Shown here: one piece after another, positions 1,401-31,311 of the stretch | How positions within the stretch are numbered: the stretch's first letter is position 1 | How the letters are laid out: every line of letters starts with the position of its first letter | Source of the DNA: Pontiella desulfatans | Lineage (GTDB): Bacteria > Verrucomicrobiota > Kiritimatiellia > Kiritimatiellales > Pontiellaceae | Length of the DNA stretch: 64,000 bases | Direction: 5' to 3' | NCBI RefSeq assembly: GCF_900890425.1 | Contig: NZ_CAAHFG010000001.1 | Location: 2,976,001 to 3,040,000, forward strand | Notes under the pieces: generated by a model | What the model was told of the DNA's origin: nothing | Seen by the model: the letters and a program-made list of their open reading frames with translations, nothing else | The model's database searches: none | Program-made: the position numbers and the translations under genes

Positions 1401-2900
1401 CTACTCTTTTGCCTTTTTATTCTTTTTGGCCTTCATCTTTTCGAGATTCTTTGCGCTCAGTTTGCGCTCTGTTCCCGGACCGTCTTTCGGGATTCCGGTT
1501 TTACGATCCAGATATCCCTTATAATGACCGGCGCCTTTGAACGGATAATCGCCCACCTTAACCAACTCCTCTTTCAGCCGTTCTGCCATCTTCGTCTGAA
1601 GCGCTTTTGCTTCCGGATTTCCATACAGATTGTTCATTTGATACGGATCTTTTTCGCAATCGAACAGGAGTTTTTCTCCGTTATCCGCCTGCTCGGCATA
1701 CCAGTAGCGGGCGGTGCGAACGCCGCGGTACGGGATGCGTAAAGTCGATTGAGGCTTGATCTGCATCGTCAATGCCGCGCGGCCGATCTCTTTGCCCGGT
1801 TCTTTAATCAATACCGAAAGGTCTTCGCCTTCAATCGTGTCCGGGATCTCAATATCCGTCAGCGCGAGCAAGGTCGGCAGAATATCGGGCGTATTGAGCG
1901 GGGTTTTAATTTTCCGCGCTTTTCCGTCAGTCAACGGAGGATAGCGGAACAGGAACGGAACCAGGTTCGCCTCATCATACGGATGGAGCTTTGCGCTGGG
2001 TACTTTCCCGTGCGAGCCCATCATTTCGCCGTGATCAGACGTGAAAACAACGATCGTATTGTCTGCGATCCCCAGCTCATCCAGAGTATCCATCAAATCG
2101 CCAACACATTTATCGATGGCGGTACAGTGTCCGTAATAGCCTTGCAGCTCCTCGCGGACTTTGGCTTCCGGATATTTTTCCGTGAACTCAACATTCGGAC
2201 GCAACTTCAACGATTCCGGCGGATAGAGTGCCTTCAAATCCTCGGGCGCCGATTTATGCGGGAAGTGCGGACCGCCGAACGAGAAGAAGAAGAGGAACGG
2301 TTTGTCGTCGGTCGCATGCTTGCGGATGTAGGCCTGCGCGTCTTTCGTTTGAGCATACGCATCGTAGCCGTCCCACATTTTGATCTTCGGGTCGTTGTTA
2401 TCGTAATATTGCGATTGCTTATAGACGTGTGTGCATTCGAGCACTTTCCAGTAATCGAAACCCTGACGGCGTTCCGGCGGGATATAGCTTTTGCGGCCGT
2501 GTCCGTCGAGATGCCATTTGCCGATATAGGCCGTATTGTAGCCCGCCGCTTTGAAGAGTTCGCCCATCGTGATCTCTTCGGCCGGCAGATAGAGGTCGTT
2601 GGCATACATTCCCGTGCTGAGCGGAAAACGTCCGGTCAGCAGTGCGGCACGATACGGCGTGCAAATCGCGCAGACCGAAACCGTCGTATCAAAATTGATG
2701 CCCTCTTCGGCGAGTTTATCGAGACGCGGCGTTTTCACATTCGGATCGCCCGCATAGCCCAGTGCCTGCGCCCGCCATTGATCGGTCAGAATAAACAACA
2801 CATTGGGCTTCTTTGCGGAAGACGCCGAAAATGCGCTCGCCAAACAAAGCGCACCAATAATCACTCGCCGCCGAAGGGCGGAACAACACAGCGTATTCAT
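1401..2900 (-). CDS. Sulfatase (CTPYR motif), Sec-exported
   Basis: A 499-residue sulfatase. The ATG at 2900 has AGAGGA upstream. The formylglycine motif CTPYR has Cys at about residue 80; the TDQW metal site is at 39-42; GKWHLDG and FTSDHGEMMG are further sulfatase core motifs. The active-site region (CTPYRA, LLTGR, STG) matches the Tat-exported sulfatase at 53271-54695, so the two are one subfamily with different export routes. Residues about 4-13 of the signal peptide (LCCSALRRRV) are encoded by a REP repeat, and RRVIIGALC recurs in the sulfatase at 8456-10099. The C-terminus is a lysine-rich tail (KAKKNKKAKE). It heads its own unit under palindromic promoter site 1. Confidence 0.93.
   Translation of the reverse strand: MNTLCCSALRRRVIIGALCLASAFSASSAKKPNVLFILTDQWRAQALGYAGDPNVKTPRLDKLAEEGINFDTTVSVCAICTPYRAALLTGRFPLSTGMYANDLYLPAEEITMGELFKAAGYNTAYIGKWHLDGHGRKSYIPPERRQGFDYWKVLECTHVYKQSQYYDNNDPKIKMWDGYDAYAQTKDAQAYIRKHATDDKPFLFFFSFGGPHFPHKSAPEDLKALYPPESLKLRPNVEFTEKYPEAKVREELQGYYGHCTAIDKCVGDLMDTLDELGIADNTIVVFTSDHGEMMGSHGKVPSAKLHPYDEANLVPFLFRYPPLTDGKARKIKTPLNTPDILPTLLALTDIEIPDTIEGEDLSVLIKEPGKEIGRAALTMQIKPQSTLRIPYRGVRTARYWYAEQADNGEKLLFDCEKDPYQMNNLYGNPEAKALQTKMAERLKEELVKVGDYPFKGAGHYKGYLDRKTGIPKDGPGTERKLSAKNLEKMKAKKNKKAKE
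2864..2893 (-). repeat. REP hairpin inside a signal-peptide coding region
   Basis: The stem GCCGCC/GGCGG followed by AACAACAC on the plus strand is a diverged REP copy lying wholly within codons about 3-12 of the sulfatase at 1401-2900. It encodes the basic n-region, including three consecutive arginines. Confidence 0.8.
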
Positions 2901-2942: not shown

Positions 2943-2988
2943 ATTATGCCTGACTCATAAAACCGCGCAACCTGCTGAAATCAGTAGG
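2943..2988 (-). promoter_or_regulatory. Palindromic promoter site 1
   Basis: The palindrome (2971-2988, CCTGCTGAAATCAGTAGG on the plus strand) directly abuts a -35-like TTGCGC (2965-2970); 16 bp further is a -10-like CATAAT (2943-2948). The start codon of the sulfatase at 1401-2900 is 42 bases below the -10. Confidence 0.75.
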
Positions 2989-3034: not shown

Positions 3035-4702
3035 CTACCCCCGTTTAATCCGTTGAGCATTTTCAGCAAATATCTTGTTTTGCTCCGCTGTAAGGATTTT
3101 AAATATCTGTTTTTTACGTCCTTTAGTGGCAACGGCCCTTGCCTTCTTATCCATTCCGGTCACATCGACCTCGGTGGCAAGGATATTCGCCTTCTGCTCT
3201 TCACTTAACTCAATGCCTGCATACAAAGGATTCGAGAAATCTGAAAGTCCGGATCTCTTTTCGGGTTCGGTCGGGGCCGGAACCGTGGATTTCTCTGGTT
3301 CCGGATTTGAGGGCGTGGATTCCGGCTGCGGTACCGGGATAACCGCTTCGGGCGCGGATTCCGGCTGCGGTGCCGGGGCAACCGCTTCGGGCGCGGAAGA
3401 GGCATTGAAGCGGATGGCGTCGAGGCCCTCGAGCCGCTTGTAGTCGCCATCCAGATCGTTGGTCAGCGTCTTGAACTTTCCGATGGGCGCATTGTTCGCC
3501 TTGGTCGTGAAATGGACGACGTTGAAGGAAAACTTATCCTTCTTTTTCTTCACGCCGCTGCGGATCTGGCTCCCGGCCCCATTGGCATGCTTTTTCCGGA
3601 CGGCTTTCATGCCTTCCTCGACCTCGCCGGGACCATATTGATGCTTCTTTTTATTGCCGGGCGGGAATTTGGTACCGGGCACATAGGTGTTGACGATCGC
3701 GCGTGTACTGGGCAGCACCTTCGGCGGCAATCCCTTCTCGCGCCGCTGACGGTTTTCCTCCGCAAACATACGCTTGGCCTTCTCGACCGCTTCCTTGAAC
3801 TGCGCCATTTTGGATTCCGACCACGCTTTCCCCTCAAAAACCTCCTTCACATAATGCAAGGCGCCCCAGCCTTCCGTGAGTACAAACACGGTATCGGCCT
3901 GTTGCTGCATCGCGATCAAGGCGGAACGGAGCCAGTAGCTGGCGCTGCGCAGCGGTGGTTCCGCAACGTCGGTCCTGGTTAAGCCCATGCCACCGGATCC
4001 GAGGGTGCTGGGGCCGTAGTCCCGGTTTCCCATCCCCGGCTTGAATTGGTTCAAGGGGCGCAACCACTTCTCGGCTTTGGCCACGTTGCCCGGGGTGGCC
4101 GACACCATCTTGGGAAACAGCAGATAGGTACCGCTCTTGCTGTAGACGGAAATGTTGAAGAGGGTTGTGTCGGGCAGGTTTTCGACAATGGCCAGCAGCT
4201 CGTTCTTGATAATGTTGAAGGCAGGGATGCCGCCGCGCTCATCCACCATCATGGAGGGGCCGCAATCCAGAATCAGGAAGACCTTTTCCCCGCGACTCTT
4301 CAGGCCGAAAATATTGATTTCCGGCATGGTGAATCCCAAGCTTCCCGCACCGCCCAATCCGTCACCGGCCGAACCAAGCCCGCCCTTGACGCCCGTAATT
4401 TCGGGCATCTTGATATCAGGAATGGGCTGATTAAGTTTGGGTTGCACAACAAGGCGCTTGCGCAACTTGGGCTTCTGCACTTTTTTCTTATTAATGTTCA
4501 CCGGAACCTGAAGCTTTTTGAGCGCCATTTTCGGGCGTTTCACCTTTTTCGCTTCAAAGATCTGATCCTCTTTCGTTATGACGGTAACCGCCACAAATGA
4601 AAGCGCAACAACGATAAGCACGGCATGGATCCCCAGACTCACCAGGGCGGCGCTCGACTTGGCATGCTTTGCGAAATAACGACGTTTAGGTCTTTGTTCC
4701 AT
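3035..4702 (-). CDS. TonB-type membrane anchor fused to a von Willebrand A-like domain
   Basis: A 555-residue protein. A short basic cytoplasmic N-terminus is followed by one membrane helix at about 18-42 containing SLGIH, the S-x3-H spacing (Ser22, His26) found in TonB anchors. A lysine/proline-rich linker follows (about 50-105), then a glycine-rich stretch. The vWA-like domain starts about 140; its MIDAS position reads DCGPS (Asp146) instead of DxSxS. Proline/glutamate repeats (PEAVAPAPQPES and PEAVIPVPQPES) lie near residues 440-490, and a charged helical C-terminus has EEQKANILA and LTAEQNKIF. The function is unknown; a periplasm-spanning structural or energy-transducing role is inference. 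It is monocistronic under site 2. Confidence 0.8.
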   Translation of the reverse strand: MEQRPKRRYFAKHAKSSAALVSLGIHAVLIVVALSFVAVTVITKEDQIFEAKKVKRPKMALKKLQVPVNINKKKVQKPKLRKRLVVQPKLNQPIPDIKMPEITGVKGGLGSAGDGLGGAGSLGFTMPEINIFGLKSRGEKVFLILDCGPSMMVDERGGIPAFNIIKNELLAIVENLPDTTLFNISVYSKSGTYLLFPKMVSATPGNVAKAEKWLRPLNQFKPGMGNRDYGPSTLGSGGMGLTRTDVAEPPLRSASYWLRSALIAMQQQADTVFVLTEGWGALHYVKEVFEGKAWSESKMAQFKEAVEKAKRMFAEENRQRREKGLPPKVLPSTRAIVNTYVPGTKFPPGNKKKHQYGPGEVEEGMKAVRKKHANGAGSQIRSGVKKKKDKFSFNVVHFTTKANNAPIGKFKTLTNDLDGDYKRLEGLDAIRFNASSAPEAVAPAPQPESAPEAVIPVPQPESTPSNPEPEKSTVPAPTEPEKRSGLSDFSNPLYAGIELSEEQKANILATEVDVTGMDKKARAVATKGRKKQIFKILTAEQNKIFAENAQRIKRG

Positions 4703-4759: not shown

Positions 4760-4805
4760 AATATACCCGACCTGAAAAACCGCACAACCTGCTGAAATCA
4801 GTAGG
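4760..4805 (-). promoter_or_regulatory. Palindromic promoter site 2
   Basis: Palindrome 4788-4805 (CCTGCTGAAATCAGTAGG), -35-like TTGTGC at 4782-4787, 16-bp spacer, -10 TATATT at 4760-4765. It drives the vWA gene, whose start is 57 bases below the -10. A REP hairpin begins just upstream. Confidence 0.8.
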
Positions 4806-4811
4806 GTATGA

Positions 4812-4840
4812 AAAGGTATGTTGTCCCGCCTTTAGGCGGC
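4812..4840. repeat. REP hairpin next to promoter site 2
   Basis: AAAGGTATGTTGTCCCGCC then TTTAGGCGGC. It starts about 7-10 bases from the palindrome and leads into a degenerate partner arm that overlaps the 3' flank of the next gene (4841-4925). Confidence 0.85.
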
Positions 4841-4931: not shown

Positions 4932-7835
4932 TTATTCATTAACCTGCTGGGTCTTCTGCATTTCAACTTTGATCTTGTAGAACGCACTGCTCTCCAGCGA
5001 ATGAACGGCGTCCGTGAAGGCGGCATCGGGATGAACGATGTTGGTTGCCCACGGCTCAAACGGCACAAACAGGTTTGTGGTTCCCCAAACACTGTAGACA
5101 CGGCCGGTGACCGCATTCCACTGAAGGATGAATTTGGAATCCCCGGTCGTCGTCGAGGTCGCGGGTATGGTGGTGGTGGCACCAGCAACGGTGTACCTGA
5201 AATACACCGTATCGTCATTCTCTTTATCAGACGACCAAATCCAGTGCGCAGGGGTATTTGTAGGCATTCCGACAACTTGATACCTATATGGGCTTACACC
5301 ATATGCGCCATAATCAGTAGCATTCGTCCAGCCTGAGTCATCAAAGGTCTGGTCTTGCCAATTCGTCGGGCCGCTTAAACTTACTTTCCAGTCCGTACTG
5401 GTGCCTATGACGCTTTCACCCACTTCCAGCTCTGCCATTAAGCATCCTGCACCTCCACCAGAATCTATTGCTTTTACGGCAATCACATCGCCGTTATCAA
5501 GATCGGGATAATAGCTTTCAGCTGACTTCCACCCGCCCGCTGAACCCAGATATTCACCATTTACCCATATCTCATATTCATTATCACATGAGCTTGTGAT
5601 TTTCCCCGACCCCACCGCCGGGCTCGGCGTGATGGGGATCGTGTTGGTGGGTGTTGTCGGGGCGCCGACGACGGTCACGTTGTCGAAAGTCGCGGTGCAG
5701 AGCGTGCCGGTGGTGTGCGATGTTACGCTCAGCCCCATGCAGATATCGTCCTGCATGGAGATGCTCTGCGTGCCGATCTGGTTCCAATTGGTCCCGTTGC
5801 TCGAACTGTATCCCGTGAACGTGTCGTTGCTGCGCACCACCTTTACCCAGTACGGCACAACCATGCCGTCGCCCGGCGTCGTATTCCCGCTGCTGCCGTC
5901 GGTGGCCGTCCGGTACTGGAAGCTCGATCCGTTGCCGATGGTGATACTCTGACACGCGTGCTTGGAACCCGCAGCAACCGTCTCGCGGATCATCACGCCG
6001 GCCTCCGCCCAGGCGTTGGAGGCATCATGGTTGACCACACGCGCCTGGATCTCGCCGTCGCCGCTCAACGTCTGATGGAGATAGTGGAAGTTGTCCGCGG
6101 TGCCCCCGATGTCGTCGCCGGCGCCGATCACGGTGAACGTGCCGCCCGTGTGACTGGCGCCGCCCGCTGCGCCCGGAGCGCCAACGTCCTGGTTCCACCA
6201 GGGAGAGGGCAGACCGTCGATCATGGTTCTGAACTCTTCAGATTCCAAAACCTTCATCATGGTGTTCATTTGCGAGTATTGCAGTGTTTCCGGGCCGAGG
6301 TAGGTCGGATACGTGTGCCAGCCCGAAAACATAAGATCGGTCCCCGGATGGATGTTTGCCTGTGCAAAGCCCTTAAACATAGCCCTGATAGCCAGTTGGC
6401 AGTAGAGGTCGGAGTGGCCACCGAAGGACTTGCCTACCAGAAAGATACCGGTATCAACGCCGCGATCATGGAGGTACGCAAAGGCCTGGCGCATCCGTTC
6501 AAGGCAATGGAGTTCTGGATCGAGCATCGCACTAGTGTCCAGTTTCGTGCCCAACAGAAAATTCGATTCCGCGACTACGTGTGGCGTCGAACAAAAGCGC
6601 GAGAGCACGACTCCGTTGTTGGTGCATTCCTCCAATAAGATGTCTATGTAGTCTCTGAAAAATAATGGGGGGACATACTCACTGACATTCATGTCATTCG
6701 TGCCATACCCCTCATACTCGAACGCGAAAGTAGCCATTAAGCTTTCGTTTATGCCGTGTTCGACACCGGGGAATGCGGTCTGTAACTCTTTAAATGCATC
6801 TGCAATTATGGCACATATATTTGTCACATCATCCAGCTCCACTCTCATATCGGGACCCCAACAATTAGCTAAAAATTCCAGATCGCCGCTTGCATAACCT
6901 TTGTTAATGCCATATTCGTTCGTATCTACACCGGCCAGAGAAGAAACCGTCGAAGCCGAATCGGCAAAAGACGCAGTGGCGACAAGGATATCTGTAGCTT
7001 CAGGGGTGAAAGTCCATTTCGACCCGGTTTTATGGTTCGACCAGCACCATTGATTTTCCTCATAAAAAACACCGATGAAGTGGTCCGCATTGTCAGGATA
7101 AGGAGATGAAGCGGGGAACCCCGTGCCGAAACGAGTATGTATGCTTTCAGCGCTGTACATAATATATCCGTTCCTATTAGAAGTACTGGTAGAATCATCA
7201 ACTTTAATGCCGAAATTGAGGTCTCCTGCCGAAATACTATTGGTGTCCCCGTTGGGAATAAAGTAGGTGCCATCTATTGCAAATTCACCGGAACTCTTCC
7301 GGGATGTCACCGCATTTTTGCAAGCTTTCCCAAAAATGCCGTCACACTGCGTAGCGTCGACGTTTCCGCCAAGGTCCACCCACCGTTGAAGTAACGGGAT
7401 CTCCACTCTCTGCTGATACGCCGCGCCCGTTTCGAATTCGTCGGGGGCTATTCTTATGAGACTATAGCCTGACATCCCAAATCCTGTCTTCAGATCATGT
7501 TCATCTATGAAATTGATCAGTTCCGTTAAAATAGCGTCAGAGGTATTAATCGGATTTGTTTTTAGAATGGATATGTTCAACCATATCGAATCGACATGCT
7601 GAAAAGACTTCGGCCAGTTCTTCTCGACGTCAAGGAGCATGGCGAGATTGTTCGTGGTCCATGCCGGGCCATCCCCAGCCTGCGGGGTAAAGCCGACCTC
7701 CATTTCAGCATATGCGGCAAGCGGACCGCACAGGATCATACTCATAAAAACACTCAGAATCAGGCCATATCTTCTACCCCGCAAAACGACATCCAGACCA
7801 CTCATCTTGATATGATTTCTTCCTCTGCTGCTCAT
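4932..7835 (-). CDS. Large secreted modular protein with lectin-like and jelly-roll domains
   Basis: A 967-residue exported protein. An alternative start is the ATG at 7805; both give a signal peptide ending near AAYA. The N-terminal half (about 45-590) was not recognised; it begins with segments that look like a TIM-barrel (DSIWLNISIL, KTGFGMSGYSLI) and may be catalytic. Residues about 595-745 look like a concanavalin-type lectin module (AEAGVMIRET, then YWVKVVRSND). Residues about 765-890 resemble a GH2-like jelly roll (EYEIWVNGEYLG, then WQDQTFDDSGW). The last 80 residues are a small C-terminal module (LQWNAVTGRVYSVWGTTNL) also seen at the end of the protein at 26258-27844. It is the only gene of the unit under site 3. 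Confidence 0.75.
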   Translation of the reverse strand: MSSRGRNHIKMSGLDVVLRGRRYGLILSVFMSMILCGPLAAYAEMEVGFTPQAGDGPAWTTNNLAMLLDVEKNWPKSFQHVDSIWLNISILKTNPINTSDAILTELINFIDEHDLKTGFGMSGYSLIRIAPDEFETGAAYQQRVEIPLLQRWVDLGGNVDATQCDGIFGKACKNAVTSRKSSGEFAIDGTYFIPNGDTNSISAGDLNFGIKVDDSTSTSNRNGYIMYSAESIHTRFGTGFPASSPYPDNADHFIGVFYEENQWCWSNHKTGSKWTFTPEATDILVATASFADSASTVSSLAGVDTNEYGINKGYASGDLEFLANCWGPDMRVELDDVTNICAIIADAFKELQTAFPGVEHGINESLMATFAFEYEGYGTNDMNVSEYVPPLFFRDYIDILLEECTNNGVVLSRFCSTPHVVAESNFLLGTKLDTSAMLDPELHCLERMRQAFAYLHDRGVDTGIFLVGKSFGGHSDLYCQLAIRAMFKGFAQANIHPGTDLMFSGWHTYPTYLGPETLQYSQMNTMMKVLESEEFRTMIDGLPSPWWNQDVGAPGAAGGASHTGGTFTVIGAGDDIGGTADNFHYLHQTLSGDGEIQARVVNHDASNAWAEAGVMIRETVAAGSKHACQSITIGNGSSFQYRTATDGSSGNTTPGDGMVVPYWVKVVRSNDTFTGYSSSNGTNWNQIGTQSISMQDDICMGLSVTSHTTGTLCTATFDNVTVVGAPTTPTNTIPITPSPAVGSGKITSSCDNEYEIWVNGEYLGSAGGWKSAESYYPDLDNGDVIAVKAIDSGGGAGCLMAELEVGESVIGTSTDWKVSLSGPTNWQDQTFDDSGWTNATDYGAYGVSPYRYQVVGMPTNTPAHWIWSSDKENDDTVYFRYTVAGATTTIPATSTTTGDSKFILQWNAVTGRVYSVWGTTNLFVPFEPWATNIVHPDAAFTDAVHSLESSAFYKIKVEMQKTQQVNE

Positions 7836-7883: not shown

Positions 7884-7929
7884 AGTATACCCGATTCAGC
7901 AGGCCGCGTAACCTACTGAAATCAGTAGG
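7884..7929 (-). promoter_or_regulatory. Palindromic promoter site 3
   Basis: Perfect palindrome CCTACTGAAATCAGTAGG at 7912-7929, -35-like TTACGC at 7906-7911, 16-bp spacer, -10 TATACT at 7884-7889. It drives the gene at 4932-7835. Confidence 0.8.
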
Positions 7930-7936
7930 GGTAATA

Positions 7937-8052
7937 CCGTATGTTGTCCCGCCTTTCGTGTCCGCCATAGCTCGCAGAGCGACGGCTGGAAGGCGGCCAT
8001 TCCGCAAAGCCGCTCAACCGAGCCGCCTAAAGGCGGGACAACGTACCTTTTC
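7937..8052. repeat. REPIN with one long-loop arm, next to site 3
   Basis: The left arm starts GTATGTTGTCCCGCC but carries the long-loop variant, in which CCGCCTTTCGTG and a complementary GGAAGGCGG enclose an inner stem. The right arm is the short form ending GGGACAACGTACC. The same long-loop variant occurs at 20879-20940 and 60096-60157. Confidence 0.8.
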
Positions 8053-14703: not shown

Positions 14704-17631
14704 TTATTTGGTTTCAGACATTTCCATCAAACGGACAGGTCCCGTTAGCCCCGAGGGAAGGAGCTCGCCGCCCTCCTCATAGTGACTCCAGACGGCAAAG
14801 GTTTTGCGATGCCCCTCCGGGATCGGCTTTTCTGAAAGCACCCAATCGGGAAACTTCTGGTAGGCGTATTTTCGCCAGGCACCCGCGCCGTGGATTTTGC
14901 CGCTTTCAGGGAAGCGGGACTCTCCGATCAGTTTATTGACCCACAGGTTTGTGACGCGGATTTCCAATTCGTTTTTGCCTTTTTTAAGCGCGCCGGAAAG
15001 GTTTACACGGAACGGCGGTTTCCACAAAACTCCGAGATCTTTGCTGTTGAGCAAAACCCGCGCCATCACGTCCACCTGACCGAGGTCGAGATAGATCGCC
15101 TGATTCGGGATGGCGGAAAGGTTGAACGTTTTGCGATAGCTCGCGGTGCCAGAGAAGTATTTGATCTCCTCTTTCGTGTGTTCATTCCACGGGATCAGCT
15201 TGTCGAAAACCTGCGGTTTTTTCGGGCCGAACGGTCGGGAGAATGCGACGGTCCACGGTCCTTTCAGCTCCGCTCCGGCGTGATATTCCATTTTGGGCGC
15301 TGCGCCACCTTTTTCGGCGGTCGGCTCTCGGAAAACGACAAATACCGATTCGGCGGGTTCCAGCTGGAGTTCAACCTCTGTTCGCCCGTCCTGGGTTATG
15401 CGCCAGTTTTGCGCCGGTTCAATCTCGCCCGTTTCCGGATGCCACAATTCGGGCTGTTTGCCGCTTTGGCGGAAGCGAATCCGTTCCTGGCGTTCGCCAA
15501 ACGTCTGATTGCTCACAAAATAATAGTCGGCGCCATTCAGCTTGTGGTGCACATATTCCATCTGGTCGGGCAGTTCGCAATCCGCGCCGATTTTATCCAG
15601 CGCCTGCTTGACGTCGTTCGGGTCCTGGATCTTGCCGGAATCCCAATATGTTGCGACGAGCTTTTGCAGTTCGGCATCATTGCGTTTTGCATTCGTAAAG
15701 TGCGGGGTACGGATCGGTCGCGCGGCAAACACGGGAACGCCCTGCTCCGCCAGTTCGCCCAGTTTCCGGGCGGTTTCCACGCTCATCAGTGAAGCCTTGT
15801 TTACTACCAGCATTTTATAGCGGTTGGGCAACAGCTTCCCTTTATAACTCGCGCGCAGAAAGCCTTCTTTGTCCACCGACAATTCGTCAAGGGTGCCGAT
15901 TTCCCCAAAATCAATCTTGTGCCCCCTAACCCCGTCTAAATCGAGCCCTTCGCTTCCCGCAAAAGAGCGGAAGGCGCGCTCTTCGCCTTCAAGTGCCAAC
16001 AGGTCGGAGACATGGTCTCCGGTTTGCAGAATGTGCTGACAACGCGTGATGTATTTAATCCACGCCTCGCCTTCATAAAACCAGGTGTTGTTGCGATGGT
16101 TCTGGAATCCGAACCGCCCGTGGGTTACGCCGGGCTTCACATCATCGCGGAACGCCTGATGCACCGACGTGTGAAATATAAAACGGTTGACCCCTTGACA
16201 GAACATCCGGTCGCCCGTCGTTTTCATCAGATAGGGATGCGCGGTCCAGTCGCCATGGCTACGCGTATAGGACTCGGCGCCTAGTACTTTTTTGCCGCTC
16301 AGCCGTACAGCGCCCCCGACCACCTGGCTGGTCCAGCTCCACCCTTTTGACACTTGGTTTATTTTTTGCGTATTAAACCAAAACTCGGTCATCGGCCAAT
16401 CGACCAGCTTCGCCACACGCGAAGTATCGAACGGACCCGGGCCGTAGGGTTCCGCCATCAAATCGAGGCCGTTAGCGTGACATTTTTCGTAGAAATAGAG
16501 GAAATAATTCTCGTACACCAAATCGCTGATAGTCCGGCGCAGATCCCAAAGAACGCGCTCGGTAGTTTCGGTACTTTCCAGCACCCGACCGCTGAGGCAG
16601 AGCAATTTGGGAATCAAATCATACCCATTGCGCTCTTCGAAGAGTTTGTCAAATCCGTCGGTCCAGTTCTGATGATGTACTTCCCAGCTATCGATGGTGA
16701 TCGACTGGAAGGATTCGTGTTTTTTCGCGGTCGCGGCCACCCGATCCAGTAAATTTTTCCAATGCACATCGGCGGCGGCTCGGCTCATTTTATCGATTTC
16801 CAACCCTTTCGCGCCATCCGACGGCGGTTTGTTTTCTATGCCCGTACTGGTGTAGCCGAAGCGCAGAACAGTCCAGTCGCCGGATTTCGGTTTCCAGTTC
16901 AGCTTCCCGGATGAATCCATTTTGTCCGAAAGGATGATTACCTCCTCCGGCGAAATCAACGCGTCTTGAGGGGATGCCGCAGTCTGCGGAGCAAACATAT
17001 TGTATTGCACCGCCTTCATTTTAAGGAGCTCCATCGACTTTTTGTCGTTCAGCGACTTGCCGATCCAGTTTTCGAGGCGGTAGTCGTTATTCTTCGGCGT
17101 GGGGAACGCCAGCACGGCGATATCGCGATAGAACTCACGCGTAGCTTCGGGTTGCTTCAGCTGAACCGACTTGTCGCCCGCCTTAACCCGGGCCTCGGTC
17201 CAGACCACGGTTTTCATCGAGTGTTCCGGCATGATCCAGGGCCCGCCGGAACAGGTCCAGCCGGAACAGTTTTTCATCGCCATTTCCAACCCGAGTCGAT
17301 CGGCTTCGGACGCGGCGTGATCCAAACAGTCGTGATATTCGTCAGAATTGTAGGTCACTCCCCCATGCGGAATAAACCAATTGATATCAAACGTAACAAA
17401 GCTGCGGATGCCCACCTTTTTGAAGGCCTCGAGATCCTTGGTGATGCCCGGCTTGGAAACGTGCCCGTTCATCCAGAAATAGAAGGTGCCGGGCTTGGCG
17501 GAGTCGGGCGGATTCATAAATGATTCCGGCGCGATATCGGCGCGCGCACCCGCCACAACCAGGCACAAGCCCGCCAGTTTGATGATCGTTTTTTTCTTCA
17601 TATGTTTACGTCGTCCAGAATTTTTCATCAT
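14704..17631 (-). CDS. Alpha-L-rhamnosidase, GH106 type
   Basis: A 975-residue secreted protein expected to remove alpha-L-rhamnose from oligo- or polysaccharides. The N-terminus shows the GH106 opening (FMNPPDSAKPGTFYFWMNG at about 38-56), the central barrel has MAEPYGPGPFD, and the C-terminal jelly roll carries the family pattern DLGQVDVMARVLLN then LGVLWKPPF. The start is ambiguous: 17631 (used here, GGAG very close), 17628, or the ATG at 17601, which gives a simpler signal peptide (MKKKTIIKLAGLCLVVAGA). It is the first gene of the unit under site 4, followed by GH2 and two sulfatases. With rhaT at 32895-33938 it makes rhamnose a likely product of this locus. Confidence 0.88.
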   Translation of the reverse strand: MMKNSGRRKHMKKKTIIKLAGLCLVVAGARADIAPESFMNPPDSAKPGTFYFWMNGHVSKPGITKDLEAFKKVGIRSFVTFDINWFIPHGGVTYNSDEYHDCLDHAASEADRLGLEMAMKNCSGWTCSGGPWIMPEHSMKTVVWTEARVKAGDKSVQLKQPEATREFYRDIAVLAFPTPKNNDYRLENWIGKSLNDKKSMELLKMKAVQYNMFAPQTAASPQDALISPEEVIILSDKMDSSGKLNWKPKSGDWTVLRFGYTSTGIENKPPSDGAKGLEIDKMSRAAADVHWKNLLDRVAATAKKHESFQSITIDSWEVHHQNWTDGFDKLFEERNGYDLIPKLLCLSGRVLESTETTERVLWDLRRTISDLVYENYFLYFYEKCHANGLDLMAEPYGPGPFDTSRVAKLVDWPMTEFWFNTQKINQVSKGWSWTSQVVGGAVRLSGKKVLGAESYTRSHGDWTAHPYLMKTTGDRMFCQGVNRFIFHTSVHQAFRDDVKPGVTHGRFGFQNHRNNTWFYEGEAWIKYITRCQHILQTGDHVSDLLALEGEERAFRSFAGSEGLDLDGVRGHKIDFGEIGTLDELSVDKEGFLRASYKGKLLPNRYKMLVVNKASLMSVETARKLGELAEQGVPVFAARPIRTPHFTNAKRNDAELQKLVATYWDSGKIQDPNDVKQALDKIGADCELPDQMEYVHHKLNGADYYFVSNQTFGERQERIRFRQSGKQPELWHPETGEIEPAQNWRITQDGRTEVELQLEPAESVFVVFREPTAEKGGAAPKMEYHAGAELKGPWTVAFSRPFGPKKPQVFDKLIPWNEHTKEEIKYFSGTASYRKTFNLSAIPNQAIYLDLGQVDVMARVLLNSKDLGVLWKPPFRVNLSGALKKGKNELEIRVTNLWVNKLIGESRFPESGKIHGAGAWRKYAYQKFPDWVLSEKPIPEGHRKTFAVWSHYEEGGELLPSGLTGPVRLMEMSETK

Positions 17632-17668: not shown

Positions 17669-17714
17669 AATATACCCGACTCAGAAGATCGCGAAACCTA
17701 CTGAAATCAGTAGG
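17669..17714 (-). promoter_or_regulatory. Palindromic promoter site 4
   Basis: Perfect palindrome CCTACTGAAATCAGTAGG at 17697-17714, -35-like TTTCGC at 17691-17696, 16-bp spacer, -10 TATATT at 17669-17674. It heads the GH106/GH2/sulfatase/sulfatase unit; the GH106 start is 37 bases below the -10. Confidence 0.82.
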
Positions 17715-21011: not shown

Positions 21012-24000
21012 TTACTTGGCTTCGCCGAAGATTTTAATGCCTTTGAGGCTAAAGGTCACCCGATCACCTACCAGCCCCACTTTTACGTAGCGAGCTTCCT
21101 TCGCCGGATTCACCGAAATCGTCCAATCTTTTTGCGCCTCTTCGCCCTGGAACACTTGCTTCCATTTCTGCTTATCGCTGGAAACCCAAACGTGCAAATT
21201 CTTGGCGTGCTTCATTCCACCATCCATGCGGTTTAGAATCGTCACCGCACGGATTTTTTGCGCTGCGCCCAAATCGACAATCACCCACGGATCGTTCGCT
21301 TTGTTTGAGATGAACGCAGCGGTCGCGCTCTGGGTGGTCAGCAGTGTGTCGACATATTTTGATTCCTTGAGCCCACTAAACTCAACGCTCGCCTTTTCGG
21401 AAATGCAGGGCAGCTCGATCACTTTGCCGTCCATCTTCAGCGCCTGCGTGTTGGAAATCTCATATTTAACCCCGGCAGGCACGCGGCGCGCGGCGCGGGT
21501 TTCGACCGGTTCGCTGCCATCGAGCAGGCGAATCGTGTAGCTAAAGGGGTACCGATCAGCGAAGTCGAGATTCGGCTGTTTATTCAACACCGAGAGCGCG
21601 GCGTCATATCGCAGGATCCAACGATCGCTCTGCGGCAGCGCGCTCCAGTGACGAACCTGTTTCATCTCCTGGGCGGTATGCCCCATCACGGAACCGTTCC
21701 CCGTTTCGTCGGAGATAATCATCAAACCGACGCCTTTCTTGTTTTGCATGGCCATCCATTCGAGATCGCCTCGGTTTCCACTCTCCTGCGGACGCACGTA
21801 GCGGCCCTTCATCGACTCGGCATCCGCTTTGTAGTGCCCAAAACGCCCGGAGGTCCTCCTTGTCTTGTAGTTTTCATACGGCCCAAGCGCCGCGTATTCC
21901 ACCCGGTCAAACGCCTTCTTGAGTGGCAGGCGGGCGCCGATACGCATCTGCATGGAGCTGACAGCCAAATCAAGCTTGCGCACATCGTTATCGACCTGAA
22001 TCGTGCCGTCGGACAGGATTGTATAGTAGGCGATATGGCGGAAACCGTACTCGTGTCCATTCGCCAAGTAGTCGCATTCGGCTTTGATCCGAACCATACC
22101 GGCGGGCGCATCGACCACACTAACCGTGCCGTTCTTGCGCACGAAATCATTGAGACCGGCGGCAATATCCTTCTTCATATTCGGCGACTGCCAAACGGTC
22201 CGGTCGTCGGTAAAGCAAACGTTCGGGTTAAACTCGATGCCCGGCAAATCGGACTCGGGCGAGAGGAGCATCTCCCCTTTCACCCGCAGCTGTTCGAGCA
22301 AGCCGGTTTTGCGATTGAACACCGCCTGGCTTTCCCCGGGCATATCGACCACCAGCCAGTCGCCTTTGGCCTGAATCTTAGGCGCGGCCTTCGGCATAGC
22401 GGCCGCCACCTCGGCTTTGGCCTGAAGCGGAACCTGGCCCGCCGCCACAAAGTCGCCTTTTTTGCCGCGGAACTCGTCGGCTTTCAGCGCGACATCGAAG
22501 TTGATGTCATAGCGTTGTCCCTTTTTGAGCTTATATTTGAATGGCGCTTTAAACTCGGTCTCCGAAAGCGGAGCCAGATCAAAGTCCACTTGCGCGCTCT
22601 CGACCGCTTTTCCGTTTTCAAGCAGTGCCCAGCGGAAATCGAACTCGTTAAGGTTGCGGATGCCGAACTTGTTTTTGATCGTCGCTACGCCGGCCGCATC
22701 GGCGGGATCAAACTGGACCTGCTGATACACCGCGCGAACCTGATACGATTTTCCGTTGAAGGAACGGTCGGGAAGCACCACGCCGTTATTACAAAACAGG
22801 CCGCTGTTGTCGAACGCGCCCCAGTCGCCGCCATAGGTCCAGTGCTTACCCTTCTGGCCCTCCACTTCCATCAAGACCGACTGGTCCGCAAAGTCCCAGA
22901 TGTATCCGCCGTTCATACCGCGGTTGGCTTCAAAGAAGTGCCACTGCTCCTGGAAACGCGGCATGGAGTTACCCATCGCATGCGCATATTCGCACATAAA
23001 GAAGGGGCGCCGGTCCTGCCCGCTCTCGTTCCATTTTGGATAACGCTCGAACCCGCCGTACATCGGCGCGATGAGCTCGATATTGTGGAGATGCGTATTC
23101 TTGTCGTTGTGCTTTTGGAAGGTGCGCTCGGCGAAGCCCGGGCGGGTCGGATCGGTTTTCTTGGTGGCTTCAGCCATCGCCGTAAGCGTCGGGATCTCTT
23201 CCAGGTTTTTCGGGAACTGCTCGTTGCCGTAGGACCATATAATCACACAGGGCTGGTTCTTGTCGCGCTGAACCATGTTGTTCATGCGGAACAGGGCCTG
23301 CGGACGATAGAGCGGCTCGACCGCCGGATCGGCGTAGATCCGGTCAAAGGTATGGCTCTCCATGTTGCATTCATCCGCCACCGCGATGCCGTAGCGGTTA
23401 CAGAGCGCGTAATAGCGAATATCTTTCGGGTAGTGCGCCATCCGCAGGCTGTTAATGTTCAACGCGCGCATGGTGGTGACATCCTTCACCATCTCTTCAT
23501 AACTGAGGGTGCGGCCGGTGTGCTGACTCGTATCGTGCGCGTTCACCCCGCGGATCATATAGCGGGCGCCGTTGAGGTACATATTCCCGAACTCATCCCA
23601 CGAAAACGTGCGGAACCCGACATCCTGGCGAAGCATTTCTTCGACCTTGTCCCCCTTTTTCAGGGTAAGGAATGCGGTGTAAAGTTTCGGCTGCTCTACG
23701 TGCCAGAGATCCGGCTTGGCAACCGATGCATTGATCTGGACTTTGCCGCCTTTTGACTTCGCCGCTTTGTTGAGTACGCTTTTGCCCGTCTGATTGTTGA
23801 CCAGTTCAAACTCGACCGTGCGCGGCTCAGACGAACCGCCCAGGTCAACGTCCAGCTTGATCGTTCCCGCGCTCAGCTCATCGTTCAGTTCCGGGATCAG
23901 GAAAAAGTCCGCGATATGGGTCATGGGCGTCTGATAGATGTAGACATCGCGGATAATGCCGCTCATGCGGAGCATATCCTGGTTTTCCATATAGGTTCCG

Positions 24001-24737
24001 TCGCTCCAACGGATCACTTTAACCGCCAGACGGTTTTTACCCGATTTCAGGAACGAAGTAATGTCAAATTCTGCGGGCGTGAAACTGTCCTGCGAATAGC
24101 CCACCTGCTTGCCGTTGACCCAGCAATAAAAGGCGCTTTTCACGCCGCCGAAGTGCAGAATCACCCGCTCTTTGTTCCAGTTTTCAGGCACGGTAAACTC
24201 GGTCACATAACTGCCGACCGGATTGAATTCGGTTGGAACAAACCCTTCGGTCGCCGCTTTCTTTTTGGCCATACCCACTTGCTTGTCATTGGTCAAGTCG
24301 AGGTCGTTGCCCGTCTCGCCACCGCGTCCATTGCGCGGGTGAGAAACCATCGCCATGCCCGTATTGAAATAATAGAGCTCGCCGTACCCGGCAATCTGCC
24401 ACGGCAACGGAACGGGGATCTCATCCCAGTCTTTGACGCTGTAGCTGGGCTTGTAAAAGTCCGCGGGAGCAGACTTCGGGTTCTCGCTCCAGTTAAACTT
24501 CCAGTTTCCGTTCAGCATCTTATAGCGGTCGGGGTGATACGGCATCGCCCAGTTCGGTTCGGGGCGCGCCGTCTCCATACTCGGGAAACGGTGGGCAAAC
24601 GCATGGGACGGCAGCCGGTTTACGGCAAACACCTCCCGGTTGGCCCACTCCGGCTTGGTTTCGGCCGATTTTGCCGAAGCCATCACCGCAAACAACATAG
24701 CGACAGCCAAAAAAGCTCTCTGACTCGAAAACATCAT
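21012..24737 (-). CDS. Beta-galactosidase-like GH2 with C-terminal discoidin domain
   Basis: A 1241-residue secreted LacZ-type enzyme. Order: signal peptide, jelly roll (GSYVTEFTVPENW, FGGVKSAFYCWVNG), Ig-like domain, TIM barrel, LacZ-type small-chain domain (about 820-1070, with ALGPYENY), and an F5/8-type-C (CBM32-like) domain at about 1120-1241 (WVIVDLGAAQKIRAVTILN). The acid/base candidate is Glu506 in YGNEQF; the nucleophile candidate is Glu583 in FFMCEYAHAMGNS. Both contexts are typical of beta-galactosidases. AAGGAG precedes the ATGATG start (24737 or 24734). It is the first gene of the unit under site 5, followed by a sulfatase. Confidence 0.92.
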   Translation of the reverse strand: MMFSSQRAFLAVAMLFAVMASAKSAETKPEWANREVFAVNRLPSHAFAHRFPSMETARPEPNWAMPYHPDRYKMLNGNWKFNWSENPKSAPADFYKPSYSVKDWDEIPVPLPWQIAGYGELYYFNTGMAMVSHPRNGRGGETGNDLDLTNDKQVGMAKKKAATEGFVPTEFNPVGSYVTEFTVPENWNKERVILHFGGVKSAFYCWVNGKQVGYSQDSFTPAEFDITSFLKSGKNRLAVKVIRWSDGTYMENQDMLRMSGIIRDVYIYQTPMTHIADFFLIPELNDELSAGTIKLDVDLGGSSEPRTVEFELVNNQTGKSVLNKAAKSKGGKVQINASVAKPDLWHVEQPKLYTAFLTLKKGDKVEEMLRQDVGFRTFSWDEFGNMYLNGARYMIRGVNAHDTSQHTGRTLSYEEMVKDVTTMRALNINSLRMAHYPKDIRYYALCNRYGIAVADECNMESHTFDRIYADPAVEPLYRPQALFRMNNMVQRDKNQPCVIIWSYGNEQFPKNLEEIPTLTAMAEATKKTDPTRPGFAERTFQKHNDKNTHLHNIELIAPMYGGFERYPKWNESGQDRRPFFMCEYAHAMGNSMPRFQEQWHFFEANRGMNGGYIWDFADQSVLMEVEGQKGKHWTYGGDWGAFDNSGLFCNNGVVLPDRSFNGKSYQVRAVYQQVQFDPADAAGVATIKNKFGIRNLNEFDFRWALLENGKAVESAQVDFDLAPLSETEFKAPFKYKLKKGQRYDINFDVALKADEFRGKKGDFVAAGQVPLQAKAEVAAAMPKAAPKIQAKGDWLVVDMPGESQAVFNRKTGLLEQLRVKGEMLLSPESDLPGIEFNPNVCFTDDRTVWQSPNMKKDIAAGLNDFVRKNGTVSVVDAPAGMVRIKAECDYLANGHEYGFRHIAYYTILSDGTIQVDNDVRKLDLAVSSMQMRIGARLPLKKAFDRVEYAALGPYENYKTRRTSGRFGHYKADAESMKGRYVRPQESGNRGDLEWMAMQNKKGVGLMIISDETGNGSVMGHTAQEMKQVRHWSALPQSDRWILRYDAALSVLNKQPNLDFADRYPFSYTIRLLDGSEPVETRAARRVPAGVKYEISNTQALKMDGKVIELPCISEKASVEFSGLKESKYVDTLLTTQSATAAFISNKANDPWVIVDLGAAQKIRAVTILNRMDGGMKHAKNLHVWVSSDKQKWKQVFQGEEAQKDWTISVNPAKEARYVKVGLVGDRVTFSLKGIKIFGEAK

Positions 24738-24767: not shown

Positions 24768-24813
24768 AGTATACCGAATGCAGGCATGCGCACAACCTGC
24801 TGAAATCAGTAGG
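24768..24813 (-). promoter_or_regulatory. Palindromic promoter site 5
   Basis: Palindrome CCTGCTGAAATCAGTAGG at 24796-24813, -35-like TTGTGC at 24790-24795, 16-bp spacer, -10 TATACT at 24768-24773, only 30 bases above the start of the LacZ-like GH2. Confidence 0.82.
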
Positions 24814-24817
24814 GGGA

Positions 24818-24910
24818 AAGTACGTTGTTCCGCCTTTAGGCGGCCTTTCCGCAGAGCCAGTTCGCAGAGCCATTTCGCAGAGCCGCCTAAAGGCGGTACA
24901 ACATACCTTT
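24818..24910. repeat. REPIN next to site 5
   Basis: The left arm AAGTACGTTGTTCCGCC, TTTAGGCGGC and the right arm GCCGCCTAAAGGCGG, TACAACATACC enclose a spacer with three copies of TTYCGCAGAGCC. A TTCCAA/TGGAA palindrome follows at 24931-24949. Confidence 0.85.
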
Positions 24911-25882: not shown

Positions 25883-25929
25883 AATTTACCCGACTCAGAA
25901 GAATCGCACAACCTACTGAAATCAGTAGG
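25883..25929 (-). promoter_or_regulatory. Palindromic promoter site 6
   Basis: Perfect palindrome CCTACTGAAATCAGTAGG at 25912-25929, -35-like TTGTGC at 25906-25911, 17-bp spacer, -10 TAAATT at 25883-25888. It drives the PEP-CTERM gene. Confidence 0.8.
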
Positions 25930-27844: not shown

Positions 27845-27888
27845 TTCATTCTCCTTTTGGTAGTAGTTAACCATTAACTACAGATATC

Positions 27889-27934
27889 AATTTACCCGAT
27901 TTTCGAAATCGCACAACCTACTGAAATCAGTAGG
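27889..27934 (-). promoter_or_regulatory. Palindromic promoter site 7, shared intergenic with the kinase gene
   Basis: Perfect palindrome CCTACTGAAATCAGTAGG at 27917-27934, -35-like TTGTGC at 27911-27916, 16-bp spacer, -10 TAAATT at 27889-27894. It drives the gene at 26258-27844. The ATG of the rightward kinase gene is only 47 bases from the palindrome, so a bound regulator could also affect that gene. Confidence 0.8.
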
Positions 27935-27980: not shown

Positions 27981-29924
27981 ATGAAATCCGCACTTTATAT
28001 CGTAACCAGCGCATTGCTCCTGGGCTGCACCCCGGAGCAAAACCGCTTGGAGGCCGAGCGAACAGCTACCGCAGCCCAACTGGAAAAACTGCCGCGCCTT
28101 AAAATCGATACGCTCATCCCGACGCTGGGCTATCTCTCTAAAGTTGCGGAAAACCAGCGGACGGGTGATCGCATCACGATTGCGTTTCCCGAGCCGAAGC
28201 CGGCCGATACGGTTGTGCTGGTTCCGGTAAATTTCCTGAACAACAAAAACGAGTATGTCGCCCGCGGATTTCCGCTCCGCTTTAAGATCGAAGCACAAAC
28301 GCCGGAAAACGAAACCCTCCTGATTGCGGATCATACGCAGTCCGATTTTCTCTGCCCGGGCATCGCTCCGGTCATTTTCAAGATCGCCGACCCGCGCCCC
28401 GTGAAAAGCCTCACGTTGAGCGTTACAAAACTGAGCCCTGGAAACGTCTGGTTTTCAAAACTGCCTATTTTCATGCTGAACGAGCTGCTGGTTTTTTCGG
28501 GCGAAGAAAACATGGCGCTCAACGCGGCGGTTGACAGCGAAAGCCCCTTTCGTTCCCCCTTCGTTTTCGACCCCGATTATCTGGTGGACGGCTATTCCTA
28601 TTTCCCGCCCATTGATCCGGCGACCGGCAAACCGTTCCGCCAGTTTACTTCGTTCGAAGCGCAGCTTCAGCTTTTCTTCGATCTCGGGAAAACGCAAACC
28701 CTGAACGGGGCGCGCTTTTATCCAAATAATCTCAACCCGCAGTTTTTGAATCCACATTCGGCCAGCATCGGGTTTCCAAAAGAAATTTTGCTCAAGGTCT
28801 CTGACTCACCCTCTTTTGAAAACGCCGTCACCCGGATCATCTCAAATGCAAAGCACCCCACCTATGTAAGCAACGCTCCGCTCTGTAAAAAACTTAAATC
28901 GATCACAGGGCGCTACGTTCAAATCACACTGAAAGAAGGACGGAAAGACCCACGCAGAAGCGGATCGCCGATGATATCGCTCTCCGAAATTGAACTGCTG
29001 CACAACGGCATAAACCGGCTGACCGGAATCCCGTTCGAGACCGCCACCCCTTTAAAAATAGGTGAAATCCACAAAATAAAGCCCACGGTTTTGACCGACG
29101 GCAAATCGATTCTCGGAACAATTGTCCCGCAGAAAAAGTGGCTGCTCCAGCTCGCGCGCCGGGCGGAACTCGAACAGGAAAACGCCGAACTGATCCTCAA
29201 GCAGGAACGCAGCTATGCCCAACAAAAGGAGACGGTGCGCAACCTGCTCTTTGCCATCCCTTTTCTGCTGATTTCGTTCCTCTTTCTTCTGCTCCGAAAC
29301 CGGTATCAACACCGCAAGAACACGCAGGCCCTGCGCGAACGGATTGCCGACGATTTGCACGACGAAACGGGTGCCACGCTCAGCAGCATCGCCAACTCCG
29401 CGCAACTGCTCGCCGAACTCTCCTCCGGCAAGAACAGCGACGATGAGGCCGAGCTGATCGCCGATATTATCGGAAGCGCCGAGCGCAGTGCCAAAGAGAC
29501 CCGCGCACTCATCCTGTTCCTGGAAAAAAACTCAAGCCAGGGCGACCTGATCGACCGCTTCCGCAACACCGCCCGTCAAATGCTCTCCGGCTTTGAGCTG
29601 ACGCTGGATTTGCAGGCGGAAAAACAGTTCAACCAACTGATTCCCATCCAGAAGTGGGATCTGCTCCTCTTCTTCAAGGAGGTACTCAACAACATTATCA
29701 AACACGCCGCCGCCGATGCGGTGGAAATCCGCACACGAAAAAAGGGACACGCGCTTCACCTTGAAATCCGTGATAATGGTAAAGGGCTGCCGCTGAACAC
29801 CCAGCCGACCCATTTAGCTAAACGCGCCAAAAAACTGAACGCCAAAATTGAGGTCACTTCCCCCGAAACGGGAGGCACGACGATTAAATGCACGTTGTCG
29901 AAAGGTACGTTGTCCCGCCTTTAG
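27981..29924 (+). CDS. Lipoprotein-type sensor histidine kinase, NarX/HisKA_3 class
   Basis: A 647-residue kinase from the ATG at 27981; a GTG at 27936 is also in frame but would spoil the lipoprotein signal. MKSALYIVTSALLLGC is a classical lipobox with Cys16. Residues about 40-380 hold two discoidin-like modules; the second is clear (FDLGKTQTLNGARFYP, GRYVQITL, ISLSEIELL). One membrane helix lies at about 420-438. The HisKA_3 H-box RIADDLHDETGATL has His460; the N-box EVLNNIIKHA is at about 568 and DNGKGL at about 597. This class normally pairs with NarL/FixJ-type regulators, as encoded at 30676-31311. The last seven codons and the TAG stop come from a REP repeat. Confidence 0.9.
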   Translation: MKSALYIVTSALLLGCTPEQNRLEAERTATAAQLEKLPRLKIDTLIPTLGYLSKVAENQRTGDRITIAFPEPKPADTVVLVPVNFLNNKNEYVARGFPLRFKIEAQTPENETLLIADHTQSDFLCPGIAPVIFKIADPRPVKSLTLSVTKLSPGNVWFSKLPIFMLNELLVFSGEENMALNAAVDSESPFRSPFVFDPDYLVDGYSYFPPIDPATGKPFRQFTSFEAQLQLFFDLGKTQTLNGARFYPNNLNPQFLNPHSASIGFPKEILLKVSDSPSFENAVTRIISNAKHPTYVSNAPLCKKLKSITGRYVQITLKEGRKDPRRSGSPMISLSEIELLHNGINRLTGIPFETATPLKIGEIHKIKPTVLTDGKSILGTIVPQKKWLLQLARRAELEQENAELILKQERSYAQQKETVRNLLFAIPFLLISFLFLLLRNRYQHRKNTQALRERIADDLHDETGATLSSIANSAQLLAELSSGKNSDDEAELIADIIGSAERSAKETRALILFLEKNSSQGDLIDRFRNTARQMLSGFELTLDLQAEKQFNQLIPIQKWDLLLFFKEVLNNIIKHAAADAVEIRTRKKGHALHLEIRDNGKGLPLNTQPTHLAKRAKKLNAKIEVTSPETGGTTIKCTLSKGTLSRL

Positions 29925-29964
29925 GCGGCAGTGGGAAAGGTATGTTGTCCCGCCTTTAGGCGGC
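29901..29964 (+). repeat. Two tandem REP copies upstream of the RAYT
   Basis: Direct copies at 29901-29929 and 29936-29964, each AAAGGTAYGTTGTCCCGCC then TTTAGGCGGC, differing at one base in the shared part. The first supplies the end of the kinase gene; the second ends 17 bases before the transposase start. Confidence 0.9.
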
Positions 29965-30675: not shown

Positions 30676-31311
30676 ATGATAAAAATAGCCATTGTAGAAG
30701 ATAACGAGTCGTACCGGAAATCGCTCCTGAAAATTATTAAACTGACGGACGATATGACCTGCCTCGGAAGCTTTCCTTCCACGGAAGCCTACCTTAAAGC
30801 ACTCAAAGGGTCGGCTCTCAAAAAACCCGACATTCTCTTGCTCGATCTCAATCTGCCCGGCGAGCACGGCCTCAAAATGCTTCCGCTACTTAAAGAAACG
30901 GCCCCCGAAACCGACGTCATTGTGCTGACGCAAGACAGCGATTTTCGAACCGCGCTTGAAGCGTTTCACCTCGACGCGGCGGGCTATCTGATTAAAGGCG
31001 CATCCATCGATAAAATCCGCGAAGTCATCCGAGCCATTGCCGAGGGAGGGACCTATATCGACGCCCAGCTTTCGCGCGTTGTGCTCAGCGTGTTGTGCGG
31101 CCACGATGCCACGGAAAAGAACCCGCTCTCTCCGCGCGAAATCCAAATCCTCAAACTCCTCGCGCAGGGCTTCGCTCAAAAGGAGGTGGCGGAGAAACTG
31201 GAGCTGAGCTACCACACCGTCTGCTTTCACATCCGCGGAACGTTCAAGAAACTCGACGTGCCCAACCTCACCGCCGCCGTCGCCAAAGCCACCCGCCAAG
31301 GGCTGATTTAA
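30676..31311 (+). CDS. Response regulator, NarL/FixJ family
   Basis: A 211-residue regulator. The receiver domain (1-120) has the acidic pocket ED at 8-9, the phospho-acceptor Asp57 in LLLDLNLPG and the lysine of YLIKGAS. The LuxR-type HTH (about 148-211) reads LSPREIQILKLLAQGFAQKEVAEKL, split here as LSPREIQILKLLAQG and FAQKEVAEKLELSYHTV, with recognition helix near SYHTVCFHIRG. It is the natural partner of the HisKA_3 kinase at 27981-29924. NarL-type proteins bind 16-18 bp inverted repeats with TAC cores, which fits the CCTACTGA-AA-TCAGTAGG sites in this window; the binding itself is inference. Confidence 0.92.
   Translation: MIKIAIVEDNESYRKSLLKIIKLTDDMTCLGSFPSTEAYLKALKGSALKKPDILLLDLNLPGEHGLKMLPLLKETAPETDVIVLTQDSDFRTALEAFHLDAAGYLIKGASIDKIREVIRAIAEGGTYIDAQLSRVVLSVLCGHDATEKNPLSPREIQILKLLAQGFAQKEVAEKLELSYHTVCFHIRGTFKKLDVPNLTAAVAKATRQGLI

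Follow-up and report, generated by a model that had tools for sequence, protein, structure and literature searches.

Introduction

'vWA force transducers' were predicted in the PVC group, in the Tichowtungia family, by Williams-Jones et al. 2025 (PMC12204202). In the PVC group their genes are described as 'often' following TPR and tolQ-like genes and a pair of tolR-like genes, an arrangement given as typical and not as required. The same paper treats a second class, the TPH-vWA proteins, which are paired with TolQ-like motors. The words PA14, orphan, polysaccharide and Pontiella do not occur in its main text. In TonB and TolA the SHLS motif reads S-x3-H-x6-L-x3-S, and the S/H half of the motif has been reported as the interaction hub with TM1 of ExbB or TolQ (PMC12905483). 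The Akkermansia mul system was also weighed as an analogue and set aside; the text passages on it do not name motor genes.

Here we describe a transducer gene of Pontiella desulfatans, a marine bacterium rich in sulfatases. The window, i.e. the whole stretch of DNA analysed, comprises 64,000 nucleotides (G000:C1:2976001-3040000) of a genome of 8.66 Mb with a G+C content of 56.7% (over 862,056 bases). Strain F1 of this species was described with 8.6 Mbp and 56.0% G+C (PMC7356697).

Results

Architecture of the window protein

The transducer gene (3035..4702, minus strand) is an ORF with an ATG start coding for 555 amino acids, arranged as anchor, linker, vWA head and tail. No family of Pfam or NCBIfam matched the protein at cut-off, and for TonB_C no Pfam match was found up to E 1. 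The initial annotation, which proposed structure prediction as a check, had described a single helix containing SLGIH with the Ser/His spacing of TonB, a Lys/Pro-rich linker and a vWA-like domain with a degenerate MIDAS. An AlphaFold2 model built on an alignment of 40 sequences showed a helix at residues 17-41 (4580..4654, minus strand), a disordered linker reaching to about residue 121, a confidently predicted head (about 123-437) and a tail that is helical in part, in agreement with that description. The pLDDT of the helix was modest (block means 50-76). Residues 16-41 contain no Asp, Glu, Lys or Arg, and a single transmembrane helix is predicted here. The TonB/TolA-type motor-binding motif, S22-L-G-I-H26 (4625..4639, minus strand), lies inside it and is recognized by the conservation of Ser/Thr and His across the aligned rows. 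The linker (residues 42-122; 4337..4579, minus strand) has 16 K, 3 R, 7 P and 9 G among its 81 residues, so that it is indeed Lys-rich, but its proline content is only modest. It is predicted to be disordered (block-mean pLDDT 43-59 for residues 41-120, i.e. below 60) but is nevertheless conserved, with a column identity of 0.77.

The head (residues 123-437; 3392..4336, minus strand) was assigned to the vWA fold by three comparisons. The best Foldseek match was inter-alpha-inhibitor heavy chain 1 (E 1.5e-6), VIA-align gave a best Z of 15.9 with the vWA fold (167 aligned residues, rmsd 2.7), and the sequence profile matched inter-alpha-trypsin inhibitor heavy chain H4 (ITIH4, E 6.1e-5). The MIDAS consensus of metal-binding vWA domains is D-x-S-x-S. 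In the window protein the MIDAS position is occupied by DCGPS (residues 146-150; 4253..4267, minus strand), the degenerate form reported in the initial annotation, and there is therefore no case for a metal-dependent ligand of this protein. The complete DxSxS was present in 2 of the 40 aligned proteins and in 2 of 18 paralogues of the own genome, indicating that binding through a metal is no general trait of the transducer family.

The C-terminal tail (3038..3391, minus strand) consists of a Pro/Glu spacer followed by helices. The best hit of residues 435-555 among PDB sequences had an E value of only 0.66. Residues 511-550 matched the Spy family model weakly (E 0.023, 15 bits against a cut-off of 174). 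The last 86 residues occur only once in the genome.

Conservation of the Ser/His motif

A full-length query of the own genome detected 29 paralogous places, 28 of which carry S/T-x3-H; one further match was short (residues 411-481) and was taken as chance. An anchor-only search returned the same 29 places and one short fragment. In other assemblies the motif was found in 80 of 85 homologous ORFs (the five lacking it are L084, L113 and L125, which are cut or split, plus L124 and L126), and the anchor model matched 68 of the 69 related loci that were fetched, many of which carry the names Pontiellaceae or Pontiella. When own and foreign sequences were aligned together (115 rows), Ser or Thr was present in 111 and His in 108 of the 111 rows having a residue at the position. 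Non-conservation of Ser22 and His26 in orthologues had been named beforehand as an observation that would speak against a TonB-like anchor; these numbers point the other way, and the frequency of S/T-x3-H among paralogues and homologous ORFs shows that the motif did not arise by chance.

Cys replaces His in three rows (L048 of the own genome, L124 and L126). Their ORFs are 700-933 amino acids long and their heads were matched by none of the three head models; the L048 head fits neither the vWA nor the variant vWA nor the PA14-like type described below. L048:6282-9083(-), L124 and L126 form a related class of long ORFs with a recognizable linker and Cys at the His position. Where the L048 ORF starts is uncertain, and its C-terminal part presumably resembles a YfbK-type vWA.

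The SHLS motif is incomplete in the window protein: S22 and H26 are present, and the Leu and the second Ser are replaced by A33 and V37. The replacements are themselves nearly invariant (Ala33 in 106 and Val37 in 110 of 111 rows). Thus the half of the motif reported as the hub with TM1 of ExbB/TolQ has been kept and the other half substituted. Mean column identity decreased from the helix (0.87) through the linker (0.77) to the head (0.53), as expected if the anchors serve a common motor and the heads differ.

Linkage to ExbB/ExbD motor genes

ExbB-family matches were detected at 12 places of the own genome and ExbD matches at 12, whereas the absence of these proteins from the genome had been the other observation expected to contradict the TonB-like reading. 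At C1:231024-239207 the genes follow each other in the order TPR (940 aa), TPR (293), ExbB (257), ExbD (134), ExbD (144), transducer (401), transducer (421). The anchor of the window protein is 66.7% identical over 132 columns to that of each of these two motor-linked paralogues. In both ExbD proteins the membrane helix contains an Asp (PMIDLVF and PLIDVVF), which was taken as the ExbD pore Asp.

Co-occurrence with exbB/exbD had been suggested in the initial annotation as a check. Two of the 28 S/T-x3-H anchors of the genome stand directly behind TPR-TPR-ExbB-ExbD-ExbD, and in 9 of 10 other genomes, hand-picked among those with a match, an anchor was located within about 0.5 kb behind ExbD, as read from the coordinates. 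No motor gene was found alongside the window gene (3035-4702), and motor genes were absent beside about 26 of the 28 anchor copies. Among the 69 related loci the order ExbB-ExbD-ExbD-transducer was complete in 12, and ExbD-transducer stood at a contig edge in one more. The tenth genome (G383) has an operon that equals the L035 motor operon in gene order and sizes as far as the second ExbD, with no transducer behind it (L147, G383:C1:826018-831515). This genome has 11 anchor matches elsewhere, a situation that suits the sharing of motors by dispersed transducers. The notion of a transducer behind every motor was discarded: in addition to G383, the ExbB-ExbD-ExbD operons L052, L053 and L054 have no anchor behind them.

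The linked operons also bear on a different geometry, in which the vWA protein would itself be the pore-helix partner of a TolQ-like motor and turn inside the pentamer. The TPH-vWA class, which likewise joins vWA heads to TolQ-like motors (PMC12204202), offers a precedent. A helix devoid of Asp and Glu and the retention of two ExbD genes in the linked operons argue against this geometry, which we consider extremely improbable.

Three other ExbB-ExbD operons of the own genome are accompanied by TonB-type genes: two adjoin a TonB_C gene scoring above the cut-off and the third a match below it. Four TonB-dependent receptor barrels were found (E 0.01). These operons and receptors were taken as systems separate from the transducers. 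With a TonB-type anchor on the one side and TonB-dependent receptors in the genome on the other, the protein might be thought to stand in for TonB and to energize outer-membrane receptors through its vWA head. However, four barrels face 28 anchors, and ExbB-ExbD operons with TonB genes of their own (two above the cut-off, one below) are at hand; such a role is very unlikely.

Coupling of the window protein to a motor is well supported, if indirectly, by the conservation of Ser and His, by the anchor it has in common with ExbB-ExbD-ExbD-linked proteins and by the independent prediction of the class (PMC12204202).

A dispersed set of transducers with different heads

The 28 anchors of the own genome carry vWA heads in 13 cases (L034, a broken copy, and the divergent L039 among them), variant vWA heads in 6 and PA14-like heads in 9. 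In the six variant heads, letters similar to HFGPATIG stand where the MIDAS would be. The PA14-type head was modelled on the relative L122 (mean pLDDT 67.6); Foldseek matched it to the PA14 sugar-binding domain of an RTX adhesin (E 1.7e-7) and also to yeast Epa/Flo adhesins. Judged by its sequence, L037 displays head exchange directly: its first approximately 149 residues are 61% identical to the window protein, and over nearly its full length it is 36% identical to the PA14-headed L043. In a tree built from 109 anchors, four changes of the PA14 label were needed, two of which are forced by the starred branches alone, indicating that the PA14-headed anchors do not form one clean side; the tree was made by a quick method, with 52 of its 106 inner branches open and long branches flagged.

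vWA and PA14 are folds frequently found in adhesion proteins. The helix could therefore merely anchor periplasmic vWA and PA14 domains as an envelope tether or adhesion scaffold, with the motif inherited without energy coupling in the motor-less copies. The adhesins among the Foldseek matches of the alternative head would fit such a scaffold, as would the loss of half of the SHLS motif and the lack of motor genes beside about 26 of 28 copies. But drift would be expected of a helix that serves only as an anchor, and Ser, His and the whole helix are the best-conserved part of the family, motor-less copies included. We regard the tether as unlikely, yet as the most serious of the competitors to a motor-driven transducer.

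Anchor matches numbered 28 plus the L048 place in the own genome, 16, 11, 22, 25 and 18 in five genomes of the same genus, 11 and 3 in two genomes of the same order, and 4, 1 and 1 in three genomes of other families of the phylum; a few of the entries counted are fragments of a single gene. Not every genome has the family: the full-length model matched 104 of 387 sampled genomes of the phylum, at most four candidates per genome being scored where many were present.

Some individual copies deserve mention. L034:6658-8516(+) is broken; its anchor and the start of a vWA head run to a stop codon, after which comes an ORF whose first stretch is PA14-like. Two PA14 transducers from separate contigs, L046:7165-9021(+) and L047 (whose ORF ends at 9218), are identical over 609 residues and differ at 9 of 1830 bases; their sequences identify them as products of a recent duplication or conversion. 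Of the 69 related loci, at least 11 (L061, L062, L070, L073, L074, L075, L083, L086, L087, L088 and L094) have a transducer gene of the vWA type near or immediately next to one of a second type. The second head is PA14-like in nine of these, L073 and L074 being judged by the anchor only.

A palindrome shared with sulfatase and glycosidase genes

The palindrome CCTACTGATTTCAGYAGGTT occurs in seven exact copies (0 mismatches) in the window, with 0 expected in shuffles. Its 16-bp core CTRCTGATTTCAGCAG, with at most one mismatch, was found seven times in the 8.66-Mb genome, each time inside one 25-kb part of the window; 14 further matches with two mismatches each lie elsewhere in the genome, and a reversed control pattern gave 2 in all. 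Each of the seven sites (all on the minus strand) precedes the start codon of a different minus-strand gene, at a distance of 43-86 bp. Site 1 (2969..2988) is 71 bp upstream of a sulfatase gene (1401..2900, minus strand; Pfam PF00884, E 7.4e-58) and site 2 (4786..4805) is 86 bp upstream of the transducer gene, in support of the co-regulation with sulfatases through site 2 proposed in the initial annotation. The others precede the gene at 4932-7835 (site 7910..7929), a GH106 gene (14704-17631; site 17695..17714), a GH2 gene (21012-24737; site 24794..24813), both assigned by Pfam, and the gene of a PEP-CTERM protein (25032-25841; site 25910..25929). The last site (27915..27934) lies between the gene at 26258-27874 and a sensor histidine kinase gene.

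This last site is also 47 bp before the kinase gene, which is on the opposite strand (27981..29924, plus strand; Pfam HisKA_3 and HATPase_c) and is followed by the gene of a LuxR-type response regulator (30676..31311, plus strand; Pfam Response_reg and GerE). From position and symmetry we infer that the kinase/LuxR-type pair reads the palindrome, with the kinase as candidate partner and the response regulator as candidate reader. The transducer would then apparently be switched on together with the sulfatase/glycosidase cluster.

Three upstream elements of the window copy are common with its neighbours; one is the regulon palindrome and two resemble the dispersed repeat TGTTGTTCCGCCTTTAGGCGG. 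L026, L040 and one L035 copy each have one element in common with neighbours at 15 of 16 positions, and for the remaining 24 of the 28 transducers no such upstream element was found. When the upstream elements were compared with sampled other loci, one match (L029) was obtained. Since shared promoter elements were hardly found at other copies, there is little sign of a private regulon as a general property of these genes.

The REP-like palindrome TGTTGTTCCGCCTTTAGGCGG has 12 copies in the window with up to three mismatches (0 expected), at 1323-1390, 2868-2888, 4819-4839, 8023-8043, 24823-24903, 29908-29963, 30600-30654 and 46325-46345. The copies at 2868-2888 and 46325-46345 fall within the opening codons of two sulfatase-like genes, where they specify N-termini starting with MNTLCCSALRRRV and MNKVCCSAFRRRV.

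Sulfatases near transducer genes

Sulfatase genes number at least 150 in the own genome: out of 555 first-look candidates, 150 were scored and every one of them exceeded the cut-off. No enrichment of sulfatases near transducers was seen: within 6.5 kb they were present at 9 of 28 transducers (mean 0.54) versus 6 of 19 controls (mean 0.68). Counted among the 28 stretches were the two tandem L035 copies and the broken copy L034; the stretch around L031 was shorter on one side. Fourteen of the controls were drawn at random from contigs C1-C5 and five were moved by hand because they overlapped with another stretch or draw or were next to the window.

In a Pfam tally of adjacent genes, fucosidase (4 of 49), Peripla_BP_3 (LacI-type, 4 of 49) and sulfatase (3 of 49) were found next to transducers; the control genes gave fucosidase 1 of 57 and sulfatase 4 of 57, with no Peripla_BP_3 among the families listed. 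The tallies cover the 25 of 89 (transducer) and 25 of 78 (control) families listed and 49 of 54 transducer-adjacent genes (both of L035, both of L041 and one of L036 omitted); they carry no statistic, and the differences are suggestive at most. Some transducers adjoin unrelated genes, e.g. that of pyruvate:ferredoxin oxidoreductase. With such neighbours and no excess of sulfatases, there is no firm ground for the rule 'one transducer per polysaccharide locus'. The initial annotation had supposed that inner-membrane energy could be coupled to the handling of surface polysaccharide. The first half of this idea agrees with the probable motor coupling, but the sulfatase counts leave the link to polysaccharide plausible and suggestive only.

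Discussion

We propose that the window protein is a motor-driven force transducer, anchored in the inner membrane and acting in the periplasm. For this mechanism as a whole we estimate a probability of about 0.68. The helix would dock through S22 and H26 on the side of the ExbB pentamer, like TonB and TolA, and a proton-driven ExbB-ExbD-ExbD motor would move or strain the protein. The most likely motor is that at G000:C1:234753-236421, encoded with the two close paralogues, or a sister motor. The conserved linker would span the periplasm, and the vWA head would engage a partner in place of the TonB box. Probably the approximately 28 anchors with their exchangeable heads share the proton-powered ExbB/ExbD motors, the approximately 26 motor-less transducers using a few of them and offering different heads (vWA, variant vWA and PA14). 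The window copy would be made when the local kinase/LuxR-type regulator turns on the sulfatase/glycosidase cluster; because of this co-expression, its head would most likely act on an envelope component of the cluster or on the glycan delivered by it.

If this is true, many exchangeable heads within a single cell can be served by a motor of the Ton/Tol type. The four receptor barrels found contrast with no fewer than 150 sulfatase genes, and the apparently motor-coupled heads are a testable candidate for the passage or handling of polysaccharide at the envelope. A still wider scheme for the Kiritimatiellota is tentative and, in our opinion, rather doubtful: modular, motor-driven glycan handling might fill the role of SusCD/TonB uptake, with few ExbB-ExbD-ExbD motors, dozens of interchangeable vWA/PA14 heads and loci that switch on their own head, here by a private kinase/LuxR-type regulator and seven palindromes.

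In literature searches no paper was found pointing to PA14-headed or dispersed vWA transducers, nor was a printed account found of about 26 motor-less copies in one genome, of PA14 domains borne by this anchor or of a palindrome regulon with seven sites. What looks new is how large the scattered set is, that PA14 heads occur on the anchor as well, and that this copy is apparently co-regulated with a sulfatase and glycosidases of its own locus.

By the protein features tested, the window protein belongs to the vWA force transducers, and its gene stands alone without motor genes. With the class as described in PMC12204202 it shares the Ser/His-motif helix, the disordered linker and a globular vWA domain, to which the class assigns the C-terminal position, and its close paralogues stand behind TPR-TPR-ExbB-ExbD-ExbD. 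It differs in that the gene itself does not follow TPR, tolQ-like and tolR-like genes, in the additional tail and the residues A33 and V37, in its place within a seven-site sulfatase/glycosidase regulon, and in being one of 28 copies with vWA and PA14 heads. The TPH-vWA proteins (PMC12204202) are similar as membrane-tethered vWA proteins linked to an ExbB/TolQ-like motor; the Asp of their transmembrane helix is absent here, whereas the linked operons here have ExbD genes. The PA14 sugar-binding domains of the RTX adhesin and of the yeast Epa/Flo adhesins have the fold matched by the alternative head of the sister transducers, but there it is carried by adhesins and here by a TonB-like anchor. 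TonB and TolA, finally, have the same S-x3-H in a single N-terminal helix, followed by a periplasmic linker and a C-terminal globular head; in the window protein a vWA domain takes the place of their C-terminal domain, the linker is conserved within the family and half of the SHLS motif is replaced.
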